The notes under the pieces are model-generated. The model saw nothing but the letters and a program-made list of their open reading frames with translations. It searched no databases and was not told where the DNA came from. A stretch of DNA of 64,000 nucleotides from Arthrobacter sp. StoSoilB22 (GTDB taxonomy: Bacteria; Actinomycetota; Actinomycetes; Actinomycetales; Micrococcaceae): positions 744,001 through 808,000 of the forward strand of contig NZ_AP024652.1 of assembly GCF_019977315.1 (NCBI RefSeq). Reading direction: 5' to 3'. This document shows positions 56,915 to 63,050 of the stretch, in pieces. The position numbers and the translations under genes are program-made. Numbering within the stretch: the first letter of the stretch is position 1; every line of letters begins with the position of its first letter.

Positions 56915-56988
56915 TGTTGCCTCCGCGATCCGTGCGGGTTCCGAGGGGTGTCTTGCGGCATCCGGGATCAATCTACTCTAGGCTTCGC

Positions 56989-57046
56989 CGAAGGGTTAGA
57001 TCTCGGCGCTTTCAAACCTCGAAAGTGCCGAGATCCCGCCCCTCGG
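56989..57046 (+). repeat. Palindromic repeat, copy 1
   Basis: A 58-bp element beginning CGAAGGGTTA and ending CCCGCCCCTCGG, with a long stem (GATCTCGGCGCTTTC pairing to GAAAGTGCCGAGATC). Copy 2 (57562-57619) agrees at 48 of 58 positions, and several changes preserve pairing (C-G to G-C). Compensatory change indicates selection on a folded form rather than chance. Confidence 0.75.
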
Positions 57047-57089: not shown

Positions 57090-57501
57090 TCAGGGAGTGC
57101 TGCACGAATCCGTCGAGATTGGCTTTGACGCGAGTTCGGGAGGACTTAGACGCAGCGCTATTTCACGCAACTGGCGGGGCCTGAAGGGTTTGACCAGATA
57201 GGCCTTGGCTACCGAGGCGATTCCGTGAAGTTCATCATCCCGTTCCGCGAAGGCCGTGATCATGAGGATAGGCGCGTGTGATACCGCAGCAATCAGCCGC
57301 GCTGCCTCCCGGCCGTCCATGTCGGGCAAGCCCACATCCAAGGTAATCAGAGTTGGCTTGAGCCGTTCGACGGCCATGATGCCTTCGGTTCCTGATTCGA
57401 CGGCGTGAACCTCGAAACCTGCATCAGTGAGTATCAGATCGATGAGGTCACGAATGTCGGCATCGTCCTTCGATAACAACGCAAACTCTCCGTGAACTCA
57501 T
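57090..57501 (-). pseudogene. Single-domain response regulator, apparently frameshifted near its start
   Basis: The body is a receiver domain: DDADIRDLIDLILTDAGF, phosphoacceptor in LITLDVGLPDMDG, Thr/Ala switch ILMITAF and KPF. No output domain. The first strand MSSRRVCVVIE starts at ATG 57501, after GGGGGATCCC, in another frame; joining it needs loss of one G at 57467-57468 (GAAGGAC to GAAGAC). As read, only a TTG start at 57479 could give a receiver, without its first strand. Either a pseudogene or a sequencing error. Flanked by the two palindromic repeats. Confidence 0.65.
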
Positions 57502-57561
57502 GGGATCCCCCTTGGGGACAGCTTACGGCGGATAAGTCATCCCGGCCGGATTAGCATGCGA

Positions 57562-57619
57562 CGAAGGGTTGGATCTCGCGCCTTTGGACCTCCCAAAGTG
57601 CCGAGATCCCGCCCCTCGG
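57562..57619 (+). repeat. Palindromic repeat, copy 2
   Basis: Same 58-bp element as copy 1, same orientation (48 of 58 identical). The central stem is CTTTGG/CCAAAG here and CTTTC/GAAAG there, a paired change. Lies just outside the left attachment repeat of the island. Confidence 0.75.
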
Positions 57620-57632
57620 TGAACGTGGATGA

Positions 57633-57715
57633 GCAAAGCAAAAGGCCCCGCAACCCTCATAAACATAGGGAAACAGGGCCTTTCTCAAGGGCGGTGACGG
57701 TGGGATTTGAACCCA
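57633..57715. repeat. Left attachment-type repeat (attL), truncated tRNA-Ser 3' end plus terminator
   Basis: Contains the last ~25 bases of the tRNA-Ser gene and its terminator hairpin. The rest of the tRNA is absent, so this is not a tRNA gene. It matches the right repeat at 78 of 83 positions. Confidence 0.85.
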
Positions 57716-57831
57716 TATGGCACCCCGCGGAACTAAGCGGTACACCCCCCAAACCCCCAGAATACGCGGTTATTGGACACATCCGCCCACACCTTCAAAC
57801 ACCCTCCTGCCGAGATTCCGTTACTGTTGCG

Positions 57832-58007
57832 TTACCGCTCGGCGTGTTTCGACCTGGCTTTGTGGGGATCCGCTGCGACTGCATCAACGTCATCCTCGAA
57901 AAGGTCGGCGTATCGGTCCAAAGGTCATCGCTGCGGACGCATGACCGAGCGTGTGCTGTTGAGCTTTGACGTTCGCGCCGGCACTAATCAGTCGCCCGAA
58001 AGCAGCC
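57832..58007 (-). pseudogene. Tyrosine integrase C-terminal remnant with one-base insertion
   Basis: The minus strand reads LISAGANVKAQQHTLGHASAAMT, then shifts frame and continues DRYADLFEDDVDAVAAD to a stop at 57832-57834. LGHAS and the nucleophile Tyr in the RYADLF region are integrase box II and the active-site end. One extra T (ATGACCTTTGGACC instead of ATGACCTTGGACC) breaks the frame. The N-terminal part including HDLRH is missing. It points at attL, as expected for a phage-type integrase next to its att site. Confidence 0.8.
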
Positions 58008-58095
58008 ACACCGTTCAGGATTCCGCCAGCCCTGATGCTCTAGGCTATGAGATATTGCTCGTCCGGAGTTGCTGCCCCGATAAGGAGACCGTGTC

Positions 58096-58911
58096 TTGGC
58101 GTACGGCGTAAGCCCTGAAGACATGAGTGGAGACGTCTCCGATCGACTCGCGTCGCTAGCCAAGAATCAAGCAGGAAAGTGTTGGTGGTGCGGTGCACGA
58201 GCTGATTCCCATGAACACAAATACAAACGCACTGATCTTCGCCGGTTGGCAAACGGCGATGATCTGATCTGGGCTAACGATAGTGTCCTGCGTCCAATCC
58301 GCAGTCACCGGAAATCAAAGGACGTGCTGTTTGGCCTAATTCTCTGCAAACGCTGCAACGACACTAGAAGCCAGCCCTTTGACCGCGCATACGACAAGTA
58401 CGCCGCCTATGTCAGTCAGAACATTTCGCGACTGTGGCGTGCACCAGGGATCCGACTCGAGCATGTCTACGGAGATGGATGGGAGCAAGAGGCGAAGAAC
58501 TTGGCGCGGTACTTTGCAAAGCACTTCGGTTGCCTCATAGCGGAGAACGGATTCCCGCCGCCCGAGACTCTCCTGCGTTTCCTCTCAGGGCAAGACGAAA
58601 CGAAGGACTTTTCACTTTGCCTGATAAAGGATCAGGAGCGTTGGCTGATCTACAAGGCACTTCGCGGCAAAGTCAAAGGTGAACCGGGGCTATGGATTAC
58701 GCCCGGGCTCGGGTGGGTCAACGATCATCGGCTGACAGGTTACAAAGCCGCTACCTTGATCGGACATGTTGGTATCCAGTTCGAGTGGCATGAGGACTGG
58801 GGCCCACAGGACTCCTTCTATGTCCATCCACACCCCGTCCTAAACGTCGTGAAGGCAGCGAGGACTACGCGGCGCGCAATTCGTCGTCTTGGAACTGATC
58901 ACAGGCAATAG
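58096..58911 (+). CDS. HNH-type zinc-finger nuclease-like protein
   Basis: A 271-residue island protein. An N-terminal zinc module has Cys29 and Cys32 (CWWC), a His-rich SHEHKYKRTD, and Cys84-x2-Cys87-Asn88 (CKRCNDTRSQPFD), the layout of HNH nucleases. Downstream ~110-271 is an unknown alpha/beta region (LEHVYGDGWEQEAKNLARYFAKHFGCLIAENG...). TTG 58096 is supported by AGGAG eight bases upstream. It is the first gene inside the island after the integrase remnant. Function, perhaps DNA cleavage, unknown. Confidence 0.75.
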   Translation: MAYGVSPEDMSGDVSDRLASLAKNQAGKCWWCGARADSHEHKYKRTDLRRLANGDDLIWANDSVLRPIRSHRKSKDVLFGLILCKRCNDTRSQPFDRAYDKYAAYVSQNISRLWRAPGIRLEHVYGDGWEQEAKNLARYFAKHFGCLIAENGFPPPETLLRFLSGQDETKDFSLCLIKDQERWLIYKALRGKVKGEPGLWITPGLGWVNDHRLTGYKAATLIGHVGIQFEWHEDWGPQDSFYVHPHPVLNVVKAARTTRRAIRRLGTDHRQ

Positions 58912-59005
58912 CGGCAAACAGCCGTGCCGAGCACTCCGACCGAAGACCGGTTTCTGTTCTGCGTTAGCTGACAGCGAACTGTCTGCGGACATGCTTAAAA
59001 GCTGA

Positions 59006-59039
59006 AAGGGTCCGTCGCCCACCACGGCAACGGACCCTT
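59006..59039. terminator. Terminator hairpin after the HNH-type gene
   Basis: Arms AAGGGTCCGT (59006-59015) and ACGGACCCTT (59030-59039) are perfectly complementary with a 14-base loop, about 95 bases beyond the stop. Confidence 0.65.
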
Positions 59040-59094
59040 CTAAGCTCTGTCAACCAGCAGGTTGATCTGGAATCAGGTTAACAGAAATGCAGAT

Positions 59095-59268
59095 TTATGC
59101 AACGTGACTATCGTATGTTCTGCAAAAATGTGCATTACATGAACTGGGTAAGTACTCCGGATCCGGTTCTAACTCCTCATACGGGCTGCGCACAATCATG
59201 GCGCCGCGGTCCTCCGCGTTCAGTTCAGCCATCATCTTCTGGAAACCATCACGATCAAACTTCGCCAT
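59095..59268 (-). CDS. Possible small phage-derived ORF
   Basis: A 57-residue frame beginning MAKFDRDGFQKMMAELNAED. The beginning resembles short phage-type proteins but no ribosome-binding site stands out and the rest is unremarkable. It may be a truncated remnant. The remaining sequence from 58912 to 59375 holds only the terminator above. Confidence 0.3.
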   Translation of the reverse strand: MAKFDRDGFQKMMAELNAEDRGAMIVRSPYEELEPDPEYLPSSCNAHFCRTYDSHVA

Positions 59269-59375
59269 GGTTCAGGACGATTCAGATAGGGTGCGACAGA
59301 AGGACCCGTCCAGGCTGTGCCGTCGCTACCATGAGCTGTACTAACCGGAACGCCACACACATCAGGAGAACTGAA

Positions 59376-59888
59376 ATGTTGGACGATGAACTCATATCAA
59401 AGCTGATGATCCAGTTGAACGTAGCGGGCGACTCCAAGTTCCTCGCCGGCTCCGGAGACTACACCAAGTGGTTTGGGCAGGCGATTTCGCAGATCCTTGT
59501 TCTTACAGGTGAGGACGACATTATTACGGTGGGTCACACGTTGGAGGCCTACAACGTGTACGACGTGAAGCGTGATGAAGACGATACAGCTACAGGAAAA
59601 TTTCAAGTACTCACGGACAAGCTGCTGATCGTCACAGAATTCCAAGCTCCAAGTCATGTCACTACAACCGCTTACCCTCTACGTGACACGACATCAGTCA
59701 CGATCAGAGAGGTTCAAGACACCAAATTGCGCAGACGCGATGGACAGTGGCCAGAATACGTGACGTTCCAAGTGGAAGTAGCAGGGAAGACATTCAACTT
59801 CCCCCCTGGCGTTGATACGAGTTCGTACCAAACCATAGAGATTCCAGCCGCCTTCAAGGCGGTCATGGCGGCACTGACACAGGGCTAG
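59376..59888 (+). CDS. Unknown island protein, PH-like fold possible
   Basis: A 170-residue soluble protein. The first ~30 residues are helical (MLDDELISKLMIQLNVAGDSKFLAGSGDYTKWFGQ). The rest alternates short strands and ends in a helix (PAAFKAVMAALTQG), as in bacterial PH-like modules; this is an inference from pattern only. ATG 59376 follows AGGAGAA. No family recognised. It stands alone between terminators. Confidence 0.6.
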   Translation: MLDDELISKLMIQLNVAGDSKFLAGSGDYTKWFGQAISQILVLTGEDDIITVGHTLEAYNVYDVKRDEDDTATGKFQVLTDKLLIVTEFQAPSHVTTTAYPLRDTTSVTIREVQDTKLRRRDGQWPEYVTFQVEVAGKTFNFPPGVDTSSYQTIEIPAAFKAVMAALTQG

Positions 59889-59985
59889 CCGTGAACGCCT
59901 AGAGAGCTTACGAAGACAACATTGTTGAAGGGCAGCTGTTCAAACCCAGGAAGCTAGATGTGTTTATGGGGGCGGGGACACACAC

Positions 59986-60015
59986 AAGGCGGTTCGACTT
60001 CCGACGAACCGCCTT
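59986..60015. terminator. Terminator hairpin between unknown gene and sce7725 gene
   Basis: AAGGCGGTTCG (59986-59996) pairs with CGAACCGCCTT (60005-60015), followed by a T-rich run on the plus strand. Positioned to end both the plus-strand unknown gene and the minus-strand sce7725 transcript. Confidence 0.7.
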
Positions 60016-60184
60016 ACTTCTACGGGAACTAGGAGCCCGTGTTGGCCGTTGGCGCGCGCTTGAGGAGGACCATCAAGTCAAAATCTGCCGGCTTGGATGT
60101 CAGACTTGGCTACGGTGCAGTCCGCGCGTTCCAAGTCAGCTATGGAGCCCTACACCAGCGTCATCTCGCCCGTCTCTGCAAGCT

Positions 60185-61129
60185 CTAGACAACCGTCGCG
60201 GCAGTGGCGATGTGGTGCGAGACTTGCTGCCGTTTGTTGTAAGTCGGGCTGGTAGGCCTGCGACTTGCAAACTGGGCTTGGTAACTGGATAGCCCCGGCG
60301 AGGTTACGAATTTCGATGAGTCCGCCGTTATGGCTGCATCAAGCTTGGTCATAGCCTCCATTAGCTTGCTCGGCTGTGAACCCTCGTACTGGCGAGTCTC
60401 AATGGAAACGAAGTGCTCGACCCAAATGGACTTGCTAGCGTTCTCCACAAAGGAAAGATGGATCACCGCAGCACCCAAAGGGCCTCCCGAGTCGCTGAAT
60501 TTTCCAGGCAGCAGCGTGTAATCGGAGAAACCCGGCCTGCCGTCGCCCGCAAAGTACAGGTGCGAAGCGGTGAACTGTTCCGCACCCACGTAGTCGGCGT
60601 TCCTTGCCTCAGTGCGGAAGCTATCTCGCACTTCCACTGACCTACTAGCACCCACAGCGGCTGAATAGCCAGCGGGATCAGCGCTTGAGTGCAGGAAGTG
60701 GAGAACGTCGTACCCTGACGTCGCTGCTGCCACGTTAGCCGCAGGAATGTGCGAAGAGCGTATTGAGAGTCCAAGACTCCGGCCAGGATAGCTGGTCAGG
60801 AATGACGTAATATCGGCCAGGCTTGTGCTCGCCCTGATCTCTAAGGTCGGCCTTGTTATCTGGGCATCACTCAAAAACGGACTTACGTCCGCCATCCAAG
60901 GTCCGAAAACAGCGCCTTGGTCCAATGACTTCTTAGACGGGTTGATAATCAGATAAGTGGCCGCACTATGTTGCGCCAGAGCACTTAAGGCCTTAACCAA
61001 GTCTCGACTGTTGGTGGCCGCAGGTTCGAGAACTGGGAAGACTTTTTGTGCGCTGGCGCCGAGTCCGGGAGCGAGGTCCTCAATCGCGCGGCATTCGCCT
61101 TGCCTCGCGTACAGGTACGGAAAATACAT
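60185..61129 (-). CDS. sce7725-family protein (Beta_protein-type fold)
   Basis: A 314-residue protein that starts MYFPYLYARQGECRAIEDLAPGLG, as in the sce7725 family, and contains the family blocks LHFLHSS, YFAGDGRPGFSDYTLLPGKFSDSGGPLGAAVIHLSF and IWVEHFVSIE. Length fits the family. GGGGGAATT precedes ATG 61129. The upstream neighbour on the same strand is an sce7726-family gene, 63 bases away; these families characteristically occur as a pair. Biological role unknown; no membrane segment. Confidence 0.85.
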   Translation of the reverse strand: MYFPYLYARQGECRAIEDLAPGLGASAQKVFPVLEPAATNSRDLVKALSALAQHSAATYLIINPSKKSLDQGAVFGPWMADVSPFLSDAQITRPTLEIRASTSLADITSFLTSYPGRSLGLSIRSSHIPAANVAAATSGYDVLHFLHSSADPAGYSAAVGASRSVEVRDSFRTEARNADYVGAEQFTASHLYFAGDGRPGFSDYTLLPGKFSDSGGPLGAAVIHLSFVENASKSIWVEHFVSIETRQYEGSQPSKLMEAMTKLDAAITADSSKFVTSPGLSSYQAQFASRRPTSPTYNKRQQVSHHIATAATVV

Positions 61130-61192
61130 AATTCCCCCAAAGTGGTTAAAGTTTGAATCTTTGTCACATCCTCAACCACGCGCTACCTTAAA

Positions 61193-62062
61193 TCAAAACT
61201 TGTGACAATCTGCCAAAGGCGCGGCTAGACGGCGAGCAATCCTAGTGTGTCCCGCTGTTGACATCTCCGTTCCATATGCAAGGGCTCGGAGAGACTTGGG
61301 GTAGTCGGCCCTTTCGACTAGTGCAGACGCCCGCATGCCGCGCTTTTTCAGTTGGTGCAAAGCCTCCGCGTGAGCGACCTCAATAGGGAGGGCGGTAAAA
61401 AGCGACCTACAGCGCGCCCATACATCGCCAGAGGGGACATCTATTTCATAACCTGTGGCGCGGTTCAGAGCTTCTACGGCTTCCTTCTGTCGAAGAAGCT
61501 GAAAAATCGAAGCCTGCTTTAGTCGGGAAAATCCGCTACTGCTCGGACGCACCACTGAAAGAGATCCGTTCTGCCGAATCCCGATAATTCCCACGGTGTC
61601 CGGTGTTACCCGCTCAGCTTCTGCGGCCCTCTCGATGGATGTGACAACGTTTACGTGCTCAAACCGGGAGCTGTAGTCGTCAAGTTGCGCCGGGAGTCGC
61701 GCAAAACTGTCAAGATCGGTCTTTATTTCGTAGGCCGTGGATGTTCCGTTGAAAATCACCAGATCCACGATTGATCGTCCTGAGGGGACTTCCATTAGCG
61801 CGGAGGCTGTCCGAACGCTATGTCTGCCAAGAACAATTTTGGACACAAGCTTGTTCTTAAAGTAGTACTCGTTCCGATACGAGTGGCCTAGCAGTCCATG
61901 GGCAGCGTCAAAGGCTTCTCCGAGCGTAAGAGTGGCATCATGAGCTTCTGTCAGCTCATGGAGCACCGTGAGCCGAGATGCCGCCCCGCCCCCTTGTGGT
62001 GACGCCAAGCTGGCGAACACGGAGGTGGAGAACACAGAAGAGATGCGTGCGGCGAACTTCAT
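61193..62062 (-). CDS. sce7726-family protein with PD-(D/E)XK-like nuclease signature
   Basis: A 289-residue protein. The central region reads SIVDLVIFNGTSTAYEIKTDLDSFARLPAQLDDYSSRF in character, giving Asp100, Glu112-x-Lys114 and Gln126-x3-Tyr130, which is the D...ExK...QxxxY pattern of RecB/Cas4-type nucleases. The N-terminal third is helical, the C-terminal third helical and basic. ATG 62062 is used; GTG 62071 is better placed after GGAGGA, so the protein may be three residues longer. It pairs with the sce7725-family gene downstream. The 4-base overlap with the tape-measure stop is coincidental. Confidence 0.85.
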   Translation of the reverse strand: MKFAARISSVFSTSVFASLASPQGGGAASRLTVLHELTEAHDATLTLGEAFDAAHGLLGHSYRNEYYFKNKLVSKIVLGRHSVRTASALMEVPSGRSIVDLVIFNGTSTAYEIKTDLDSFARLPAQLDDYSSRFEHVNVVTSIERAAEAERVTPDTVGIIGIRQNGSLSVVRPSSSGFSRLKQASIFQLLRQKEAVEALNRATGYEIDVPSGDVWARCRSLFTALPIEVAHAEALHQLKKRGMRASALVERADYPKSLRALAYGTEMSTAGHTRIARRLAAPLADCHKF

Positions 62063-62171
62063 GCTAACCACTTGTTCCTCCGTTTCCCCACACATGGGAG
62101 TATAGGCGCTTCTTTGTCGTACGTTTCATTTGGCCCCTGTCTACTTTTGAGGGCTTCAGGTTGATCGCTTG

Positions 62172-62203
62172 GGCAGGACGCCCTCTGTGATGGGCGCCCT
62201 GCC
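62172..62203. terminator. Hairpin after tape-measure remnant
   Basis: GGCAGGACGCCC (62172-62183) pairs with GGGCGCCCTGCC (62192-62203) over 12 positions with one G.T, followed on the plus strand by TCTTTT. It lies 9 bases beyond the original tape-measure stop and separates phage remains from the sce7726 promoter region. Confidence 0.55.
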
Positions 62204-62212
62204 TCTTTTGGG

Positions 62213-62766
62213 CTAGCCTCGACCGGCCCTTGCATACTGTGAAGCAGAATCCGCGGCCTTGATGGCGACGTGGCAACCTCCACAGCCACGCCGCGGAACG
62301 TGCCGAACACCTGACCGGAATCCATGATCAATGTCCCTGTCATCTGGGTAGGCCCGGAAGCAACAGCAGGAACCGCCGCTACTGACCTCGCAGGAGCAGC
62401 AGCCGGCGCGTACTGATAGCCCATTGGGCCAGCGCCGGAATGCAACTGCTTACGGAACTCATACACCCCACCCTGACCGCCCATAGCATCAACATCACTG
62501 TCGGGCAGGACGTGCTCACCAGGGGCCAACAGACGAAGCTCAGAATCAATACCCTTTTGCCCGCGGCCAACCACAGCGCCACCAGTAGCCATCGGAGCGA
62601 TCTGACCCGGACAGTCAGGATCCGGTCCGCCTTTGATGACACGCTCGTAAGTTTCCTGAATGGTACGGATGGTCAACGTCGAAACCTTGCCATTCAACGC
62701 GTTCGCCTTAATCCCCTTGAGGTAAGCGGAGATGTCAACGTTGTCTGGGATACCCAGGGCCTTACT
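62213..62766 (-). pseudogene. Phage tail tape-measure protein, 3' remnant with frameshift
   Basis: About 185 codons of a tape-measure C-terminus: GIPDNVDISAYLKGIKANAL, MATGGAVVGRGQKG, ELRLLAPGEHVLPDSDVDAMGGQGG and VFGTFRGVAVEV. Near 62274 the frame must shift to continue HVAIKAADSASQYARAGRG to the stop at 62213-62215. The N-terminal majority (thousands of bases in phages) is gone and the right end joins directly to an integrase fragment. A decayed prophage gene. Confidence 0.85.
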
Positions 62767-62899
62767 AGGCCACAGCTCTTCGGCGATGACCTTGGATGTC
62801 TACGCAGACCTATTCGACGGCGACCTTGATTCCTTGTCGGACGCTTTAGATCACGCCGTTTCACAATCGACTGTGGGCAAAATGTGGGCAGACGCATAG
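62732..62899 (+). pseudogene. Tyrosine integrase C-terminal remnant at attR
   Basis: The plus strand reads LLGHSSSAMTLDVYADLFDGDLDSLSDALDH and ends GKMWADA at a TAG. LGHSS is integrase box II and the Tyr in DVYADLF is the nucleophile. The N-terminal and catalytic Arg region are missing; sequence left of ~62766 is tape-measure on the other strand. It differs from the remnant at the left end, implying a second integrase. Confidence 0.85.
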
Positions 62900-62904
62900 C
62901 TTGG

Positions 62905-62987
62905 GCAAAGCAAAAGGCCCCGCATCCCTCATAAACAAAGGGAAGCAGGGCCTTTCTCATTGGCGGTGACGGTGGGATTTGAACCCA
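62905..62987. repeat. Right attachment-type repeat (attR), overlapping intact tRNA-Ser 3' end
   Basis: 83 bp matching the left repeat at 78 positions; includes the tRNA terminator hairpin and the last 27 bases of the tRNA gene. Confidence 0.85.
62913..62955 (-). terminator. tRNA-Ser terminator
   Basis: AAAGGCCC (minus strand) pairs with GGGCCTTT, with a nested CCCT/AGGG pair inside, just after the CCA end of the tRNA gene. Confidence 0.7.
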
Positions 62988-63050
62988 CGTTGGCTTTTAC
63001 ACCAAACAACATTTCGAGTGTTGCACCTTCGGCCGCTCGGACACGTCACC
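62961..63050 (-). tRNA. tRNA-Ser(CGA), CCA encoded
   Basis: Read on the minus strand the 90-base gene begins GGTGACGTGTCCGAGCGG and ends CCGTCACCGCCA. Acceptor arms GGTGACG/CGTCACC pair; the anticodon stem CAACA/TGTTG encloses the loop CTCGAAA, giving anticodon CGA. A long variable arm (class II) and T arm GTGGGTTCAAATCCCAC are present. Its 3' end is duplicated at attL. Confidence 0.95.

Follow-up and report, generated by a model that had tools for sequence, protein, structure and literature searches.

The closest described system to the locus reported here is the gop-beta-cII cassette of satellite phage P4, which protects Escherichia coli against the phages lambda and P1 (Rousset et al., PMC9122126). 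In this cassette gop is toxic without beta (cited in PMC9122126), and beta is thought to be the gop antitoxin (PMC9122126). A second system, PD-lambda-2 of E. coli, has a third component (protein C) that is described as related to a P4 antitoxin and is required for defence (Vassallo et al., PMC9519451). RES toxins, which are NAD+ phosphorylases, also have a bearing on the locus, and a 2024 study stated that no RES toxin-antitoxin system had been implicated in immunity (PMC11535050). The two protein families at the centre of this analysis, sce7726 and sce7725, are known only by locus names and are mentioned in passing in the literature, in which we found no phage-challenge or toxicity tests of any sce7726/sce7725 pair.

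We analysed a 64,000-nucleotide stretch of the Arthrobacter sp. StoSoilB22 genome (the window), in which an sce7726/sce7725 pair lies on an island at a tRNA-Ser gene. The features of the island and its borders are as follows.

57630-57715, + strand: 86-bp direct repeat at one island end, an att-like copy of the tRNA-Ser 3' end and terminator (93% match to 62902-62987)
57716-62901, no strand: tRNA-Ser island with the pair, 5.2 kb (repeats, empty sites, GC)
58096-58911, + strand: ORF with an HNH-like cysteine motif in its sequence (KCWWCG...CKRC), other island cargo
59097-59888, + strand: convergent ORF of no known family, at the position of RES in other loci but not RES
60185-61129, - strand: sce7725, 314 aa, predicted TIM-barrel-like, putative distant relative of P4 beta (NF033831, hhalign, AlphaFold2, Foldseek)
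61193-62062, - strand: sce7726, predicted cII-family PD-(D/E)XK nuclease, 289 aa, start MKFAARIS (NF033832, PADLOC cll, AlphaFold2, Foldseek)
62059-62697, - strand: phage tape-measure-protein remnant (PHROG 934, 6e-11)
62902-62987, + strand: 86-bp direct repeat at the other island end, over the tRNA-Ser 3' end
62961-63050, - strand: tRNA-Ser (CGA), the integration site (ARAGORN)

The island is a real mobile island, as the initial annotation had proposed, because 86-bp repeats occur at the tRNA-Ser gene and because empty sites were found within the genus. Two loci of the same genus, L175 and L176, lack the island: their tRNA-Ser gene is intact and the sequences on either side meet there directly, and a third (L179) agrees with an empty site over shorter matches. 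Island GC content is 55%, compared with 63% around it, and no integrase was seen within the 5.2 kb. The start of the convergent ORF is uncertain, and an internal Met may be the true one. The ORF with the HNH-like motif had no match in Pfam, NCBIfam, PHROG or PADLOC. An alternative start is also possible for sce7726, given an in-frame ATG upstream at 62095.

Both proteins of the pair fall well within their NCBIfam families: the window sce7726 protein scores 153.8 bits on NF033832 (curated cut-off 70 bits) and sce7725 scores 159.2 bits on NF033831 (curated cut-off 60 bits). For comparison, 160 loci were taken from genome and viral collections by a pattern scan. Among the genome loci, which are the best 80 of the scan matches listed, sce7725 adjoins sce7726 in 75, and the two are usually only a few bases apart (median 3). 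Distances between pairs of sce7726 sequences are also correlated with those between the corresponding sce7725 sequences (r = 0.88, a value reached in none of 2,000 permutations). The expectation that the two families pair was therefore borne out: adjacency, tight gaps and correlated distances make sce7726 and sce7725 a real, co-inherited unit. The carriers of related loci include plasmids, satellites, ICE-like regions and prophages.

Departures from this arrangement were also observed. The pair order is reversed on one viral contig, with sce7725 before sce7726 (L108:6903-8690), and the two genes are convergent, as in P4, at L039:7986-9808. On a staphylococcal plasmid sce7725 is missing, and sce7726 comes immediately after the gene for a type I restriction R subunit (L009:5983-6846). 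Three mycobacterial loci likewise have sce7726 without sce7725 (L023:7243-8849, L020:5658-6542 and L007:5947-6882); the gene in L007 lies amid ESX genes, and L023 contains two tandem sce7726 genes.

We assessed whether sce7726 has the features of a nuclease. The window protein carries D100, E112-I-K114 and Q126-x3-Y130, with the numbering given in the initial annotation, where these residues were read as a PD-(D/E)XK signature of the RecB/Cas4 type in a pair spanning 60185-62062. Nuclease residues are conserved across the family in both sequence sets. In eight sequences, comprising the window protein and tblastn relatives gathered with no motif filter, D100, E112, K114, D118, R122, L123 and Q126 are invariant. 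In a larger set of 77 sequences, D100, E112, I113, K114, D118, R122, Q126, Y130, G158 and E194 are invariant, but the retrieval pattern required E112, K114 and D118, so only D100, R122, Q126, Y130, G158 and E194 can serve as an independent test. An AlphaFold2 model based on the 77-sequence alignment (pLDDT 95, pTM 0.92) shows helix 65-77, strands 87-94, 97-104 and 108-114, helix 123-131 and strand 136-142. This is the alpha-beta-beta-beta-alpha-beta core of the PD-(D/E)XK superfamily, in which adjacent strands bear D and (D/E)xK; here the core is flanked by N- and C-terminal helical regions. D100, E112/K114 and Q126/Y130 are placed in the model as expected for a PD-(D/E)XK nuclease with QxxxY, the latter at its usual place after the ExK motif. 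The modelled layout of sce7726 is that of a PD-(D/E)XK nuclease with an intact D-ExK-QxxxY site, and the site is also intact in all RES-less and solo sce7726 members checked.

The fold thus agreed with the nuclease class first proposed, but not with the subtype. The top Foldseek match in the PDB was 3dnx (SPO1766; E 5e-4, probability 1.00), which we take to be MmcB-like, with SfsA second and weaker matches to EndoMS/NucS, HincII and tRNA-splicing endonucleases, all at modest TM-scores. Cas4/RecB structures were absent from the 50 best Foldseek matches listed and from a PDB sequence search with the sce7726 profile, and the window sce7726 sequence has no Fe-S cysteine cluster, a Cas4 trait. A specifically Cas4/RecB-type assignment was rejected, the closest solved folds among the matches listed being 3dnx, SfsA and EndoMS/NucS. 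No sequence relation to these proteins was detectable, and sce7726 differs from them in its additional helical regions. PDB sequence searches with the sce7726 and sce7725 profiles returned only chance or low-complexity matches (CagY repeats, a flavodoxin). The partner protein, sce7725, is predicted to be TIM-barrel-like: its AlphaFold2 model (pLDDT 94.2) matched diverse TIM barrels at low significance in Foldseek, besides one strong structure match to a Gordonia phage Powerball protein (E 1e-10). Its invariant residues, Y2, N177, H224 and H239, suggest a putative binding or active site.

The tblastn phage matches included P4 cII, which the NC_001609 record annotates as an sce7726 protein beside a 'beta family protein' and gop. 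P4 cII scores 151 bits on NF033832 (154 for the window protein), and the profile of the sce7726 set matched that of the P4 cII set at 99.8% (E 8e-30), which places sce7726, as judged from profiles, in the family of P4 cII. The profile of the sce7725 set aligned with that of the P4 beta set in hhalign at 95.5% (E 1.6e-8, 300 columns, 13% identity), compared with 1.5% and 0.2% for two negative controls; by this remote link, sce7725 is predicted to be related to P4 beta distantly but over its full length. Given the homology to cII and beta and the activity of gop-beta-cII and PD-lambda-2, both window families have relatives with tested anti-phage function. The initial remark that no mechanism was described for them was therefore incomplete, as it overlooked this kinship with a cassette of published anti-phage activity.

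However, the window pair is not a strict gop-beta-cII member, because gop and a beta recognizable at the PADLOC or Pfam level are missing. While the cII component was recovered (PADLOC cll model, 2.4e-19, besides the profile match above), PF14350 (beta) scored 17.6 bits against the window sce7725, below its cut-off of 27, and PADLOC gave no beta match to this protein. No gop was found in the window, and among the loci surveyed gop was present only in P4-like ones. The window pair and the P4 cassette share the nuclease family, a distantly related beta/sce7725 component and the kind of carrier, and an E. coli two-gene relative sits next to an integrase gene, like P4 cII. They differ in arrangement, P4 beta and cII being convergent whereas the window pair has the operon order sce7726-sce7725, and in P4 cII lacking the N-terminal helical region of sce7726. 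The likeness to PD-lambda-2 lies in protein C: the PADLOC PD-Lambda-2_C model matched P4 beta at 8e-14 but the window sce7725 only at 0.022, and the other PD-lambda-2 components are HigB-like and HigA-peptidase partners, with no sce7726.

Elsewhere, the pair is commonly followed by a third gene. Members of a single family are present in 73 of 96 surveyed loci, a fraction that is not an unbiased frequency because the scan kept the best 80 of the matches listed. The third gene lies directly after sce7725 in 71 of the 73 (median gap 1 base). All 43 non-redundant full-length copies tested contain the Pfam RES domain, 19 of them together with HEPN_RES_NTD1, and the alignment has invariant R162, R164, Y199, E210, S304 and N311; judged by these residues, the RES active site looks intact. 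Distances among the three proteins are strongly correlated (r 0.93-0.95), to which shared ancestry of the hosts may contribute. We found no literature description of an sce7726-sce7725-RES operon and no PADLOC model matching its RES gene; it is apparently a widespread and undescribed operon. The RES NAD+-phosphorylase domain is shared with RES-Xre modules (NatR-NatT, MbcTA), which differ in that their antitoxin is Xre, whereas the RES partner in relatives of the window locus is the sce7726-sce7725 pair. The proposal of a new two-gene anti-phage or DNA-processing system was thus only partly upheld, as relatives occur in a defence setting but the pair is, in most genomes that carry it, part of a three-gene operon with a RES toxin-like gene. 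Examples of the operon are L010:5959-8827, L011:5971-8837, L190:9001-11869 and L191:7103-9869, along with about 70 further loci, and its RES protein is laid out as N-terminal CxxC pairs, a HEPN/RES N-terminal region and the RES domain.

At the window locus sce7725 is not followed by a RES gene, and neither tblastn nor six-frame HMM searches of the window found a RES gene or remnant; the best RES-like match (E 0.08) overlaps sce7725 itself but in another reading frame. No RES gene was found elsewhere in the genome. In the sce7726 tree the window protein belongs to a starred nine-member clade without RES, made up of the window, Curtobacterium, Microbacterium, Acidovorax, two viral contigs and the three solo mycobacterial copies. 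RES absence is insecure for Acidovorax because that locus ends 298 bases after sce7725. The sce7725 tree groups the same six paired members (support 91, starred inner branches, long branches). Across the sce7726 tree RES presence changes 13 times, on a topology with weak deep branches and a root that is not fixed.

Both forms of the system occur in E. coli. Of 5,426 complete genomes, 422 (about 8%) contain a member of the RES-less clade, the two-gene form with the proteins WP_000019149 and WP_000287253. In one strain, SK1144, it lies in a P2/P4-type satellite at tRNA-Arg, between the ogr/Delta gene and int, and is the only annotated cargo of that slot; this position resembles that of P4 cII next to int. 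For the three-gene RES form the count is 18 E. coli genomes. Two of these were examined, including MS 115-1, and both have a KwaB-like gene near the operon; TIR and caspase proteins are also close by at one locus and a type I restriction gene at the other, so that the survey of neighbourhoods did place relatives among defence genes. PADLOC families numbered at least 120 near the pair and at least 67 far from it, a comparison that is only suggestive because it counts families and not proteins.

We propose, with a probability of roughly 0.55, that the window pair represents a P4-type anti-phage module in a two-gene variant that lacks RES and has a nuclease effector, carried on a phage-derived tRNA-Ser island. 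Under this proposal, sce7725 would restrain a toxic or DNA-damaging partner, or sense infection, in line with the presumed role of beta. The restrained partner would be the RES NAD+ phosphorylase in the three-gene form and the sce7726 nuclease itself in the two-gene form of the window. A phage trigger would relieve the action of sce7725, after which the nuclease could cut phage DNA, or host DNA in an abortive infection; in relatives, RES or gop would be the killing effector. Because the P4 toxin is gop, and gop is missing from the window, analogy with P4 does not prove what the effector of the two-gene form is. More broadly, and with slightly less assurance than an even bet would carry, sce7726-sce7725 may be a portable control-and-nuclease module with exchangeable effectors: RES in most lineages, gop for P4 and, in the clade of the window, only the nuclease. 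If so, the operon would provide the first case of a RES toxin with a demonstrated role in phage defence. The analysis links two families known only by locus names to a defence cassette whose activity has been demonstrated by experiment, and it brings to light a widespread, apparently undescribed RES operon. As both forms exist in E. coli, the question of RES toxins in immunity is now directly testable.

Several of these observations could also be accommodated by a plain toxin-antitoxin or addiction module, in which a nuclease toxin and an sce7725 antitoxin would mainly stabilize islands, satellites and plasmids. The carriers of the relatives, the tight spacing of the two genes and the presumed antitoxin role of beta (PMC9122126) all fit such a module. 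We nevertheless consider it unlikely, since relatives lie near defence genes and in a satellite cargo slot, the P4 relative is demonstrably anti-phage (PMC9122126), and solo sce7726 genes exist. The mycobacterial solo copies show the nuclease occurring without sce7725, an observation that argues against strict toxin-antitoxin dependence.

We regard as improbable a role in DNA processing for the mobile element (repair, recombination or entry exclusion), of the kind that MmcB-like nucleases may perform. The nearest solved fold, 3dnx, is presumably of that type, and a few copies are embedded among conjugative or ESX genes, but the RES NAD+-phosphorylase gene that follows most copies fits DNA repair poorly, and sce7726 is sporadic, being present in 5 of 347 same-phylum genomes. 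The prevalence of RES in the surveyed loci, its absence from the window and its genome, and the lack of an integrase would also fit a window locus that had lost the toxin gene of a three-gene system, leaving a non-functional pair. Yet the RES-less state is common to a supported clade spanning Actinomycetota, Pseudomonadota and satellites, with nuclease sites intact, and the same form is common and intact in E. coli, so we hold this degradation to be quite improbable. As the island has a phage remnant and no integrase, the window pair is possibly decaying cargo, yet both of its ORFs are intact.

Just outside the island, a 68-nt direct repeat (79%; 56979-57046 and 57552-57619) flanks a response-regulator-like ORF (57090-57479), and stretches related to these repeats recur in same-genus genomes.
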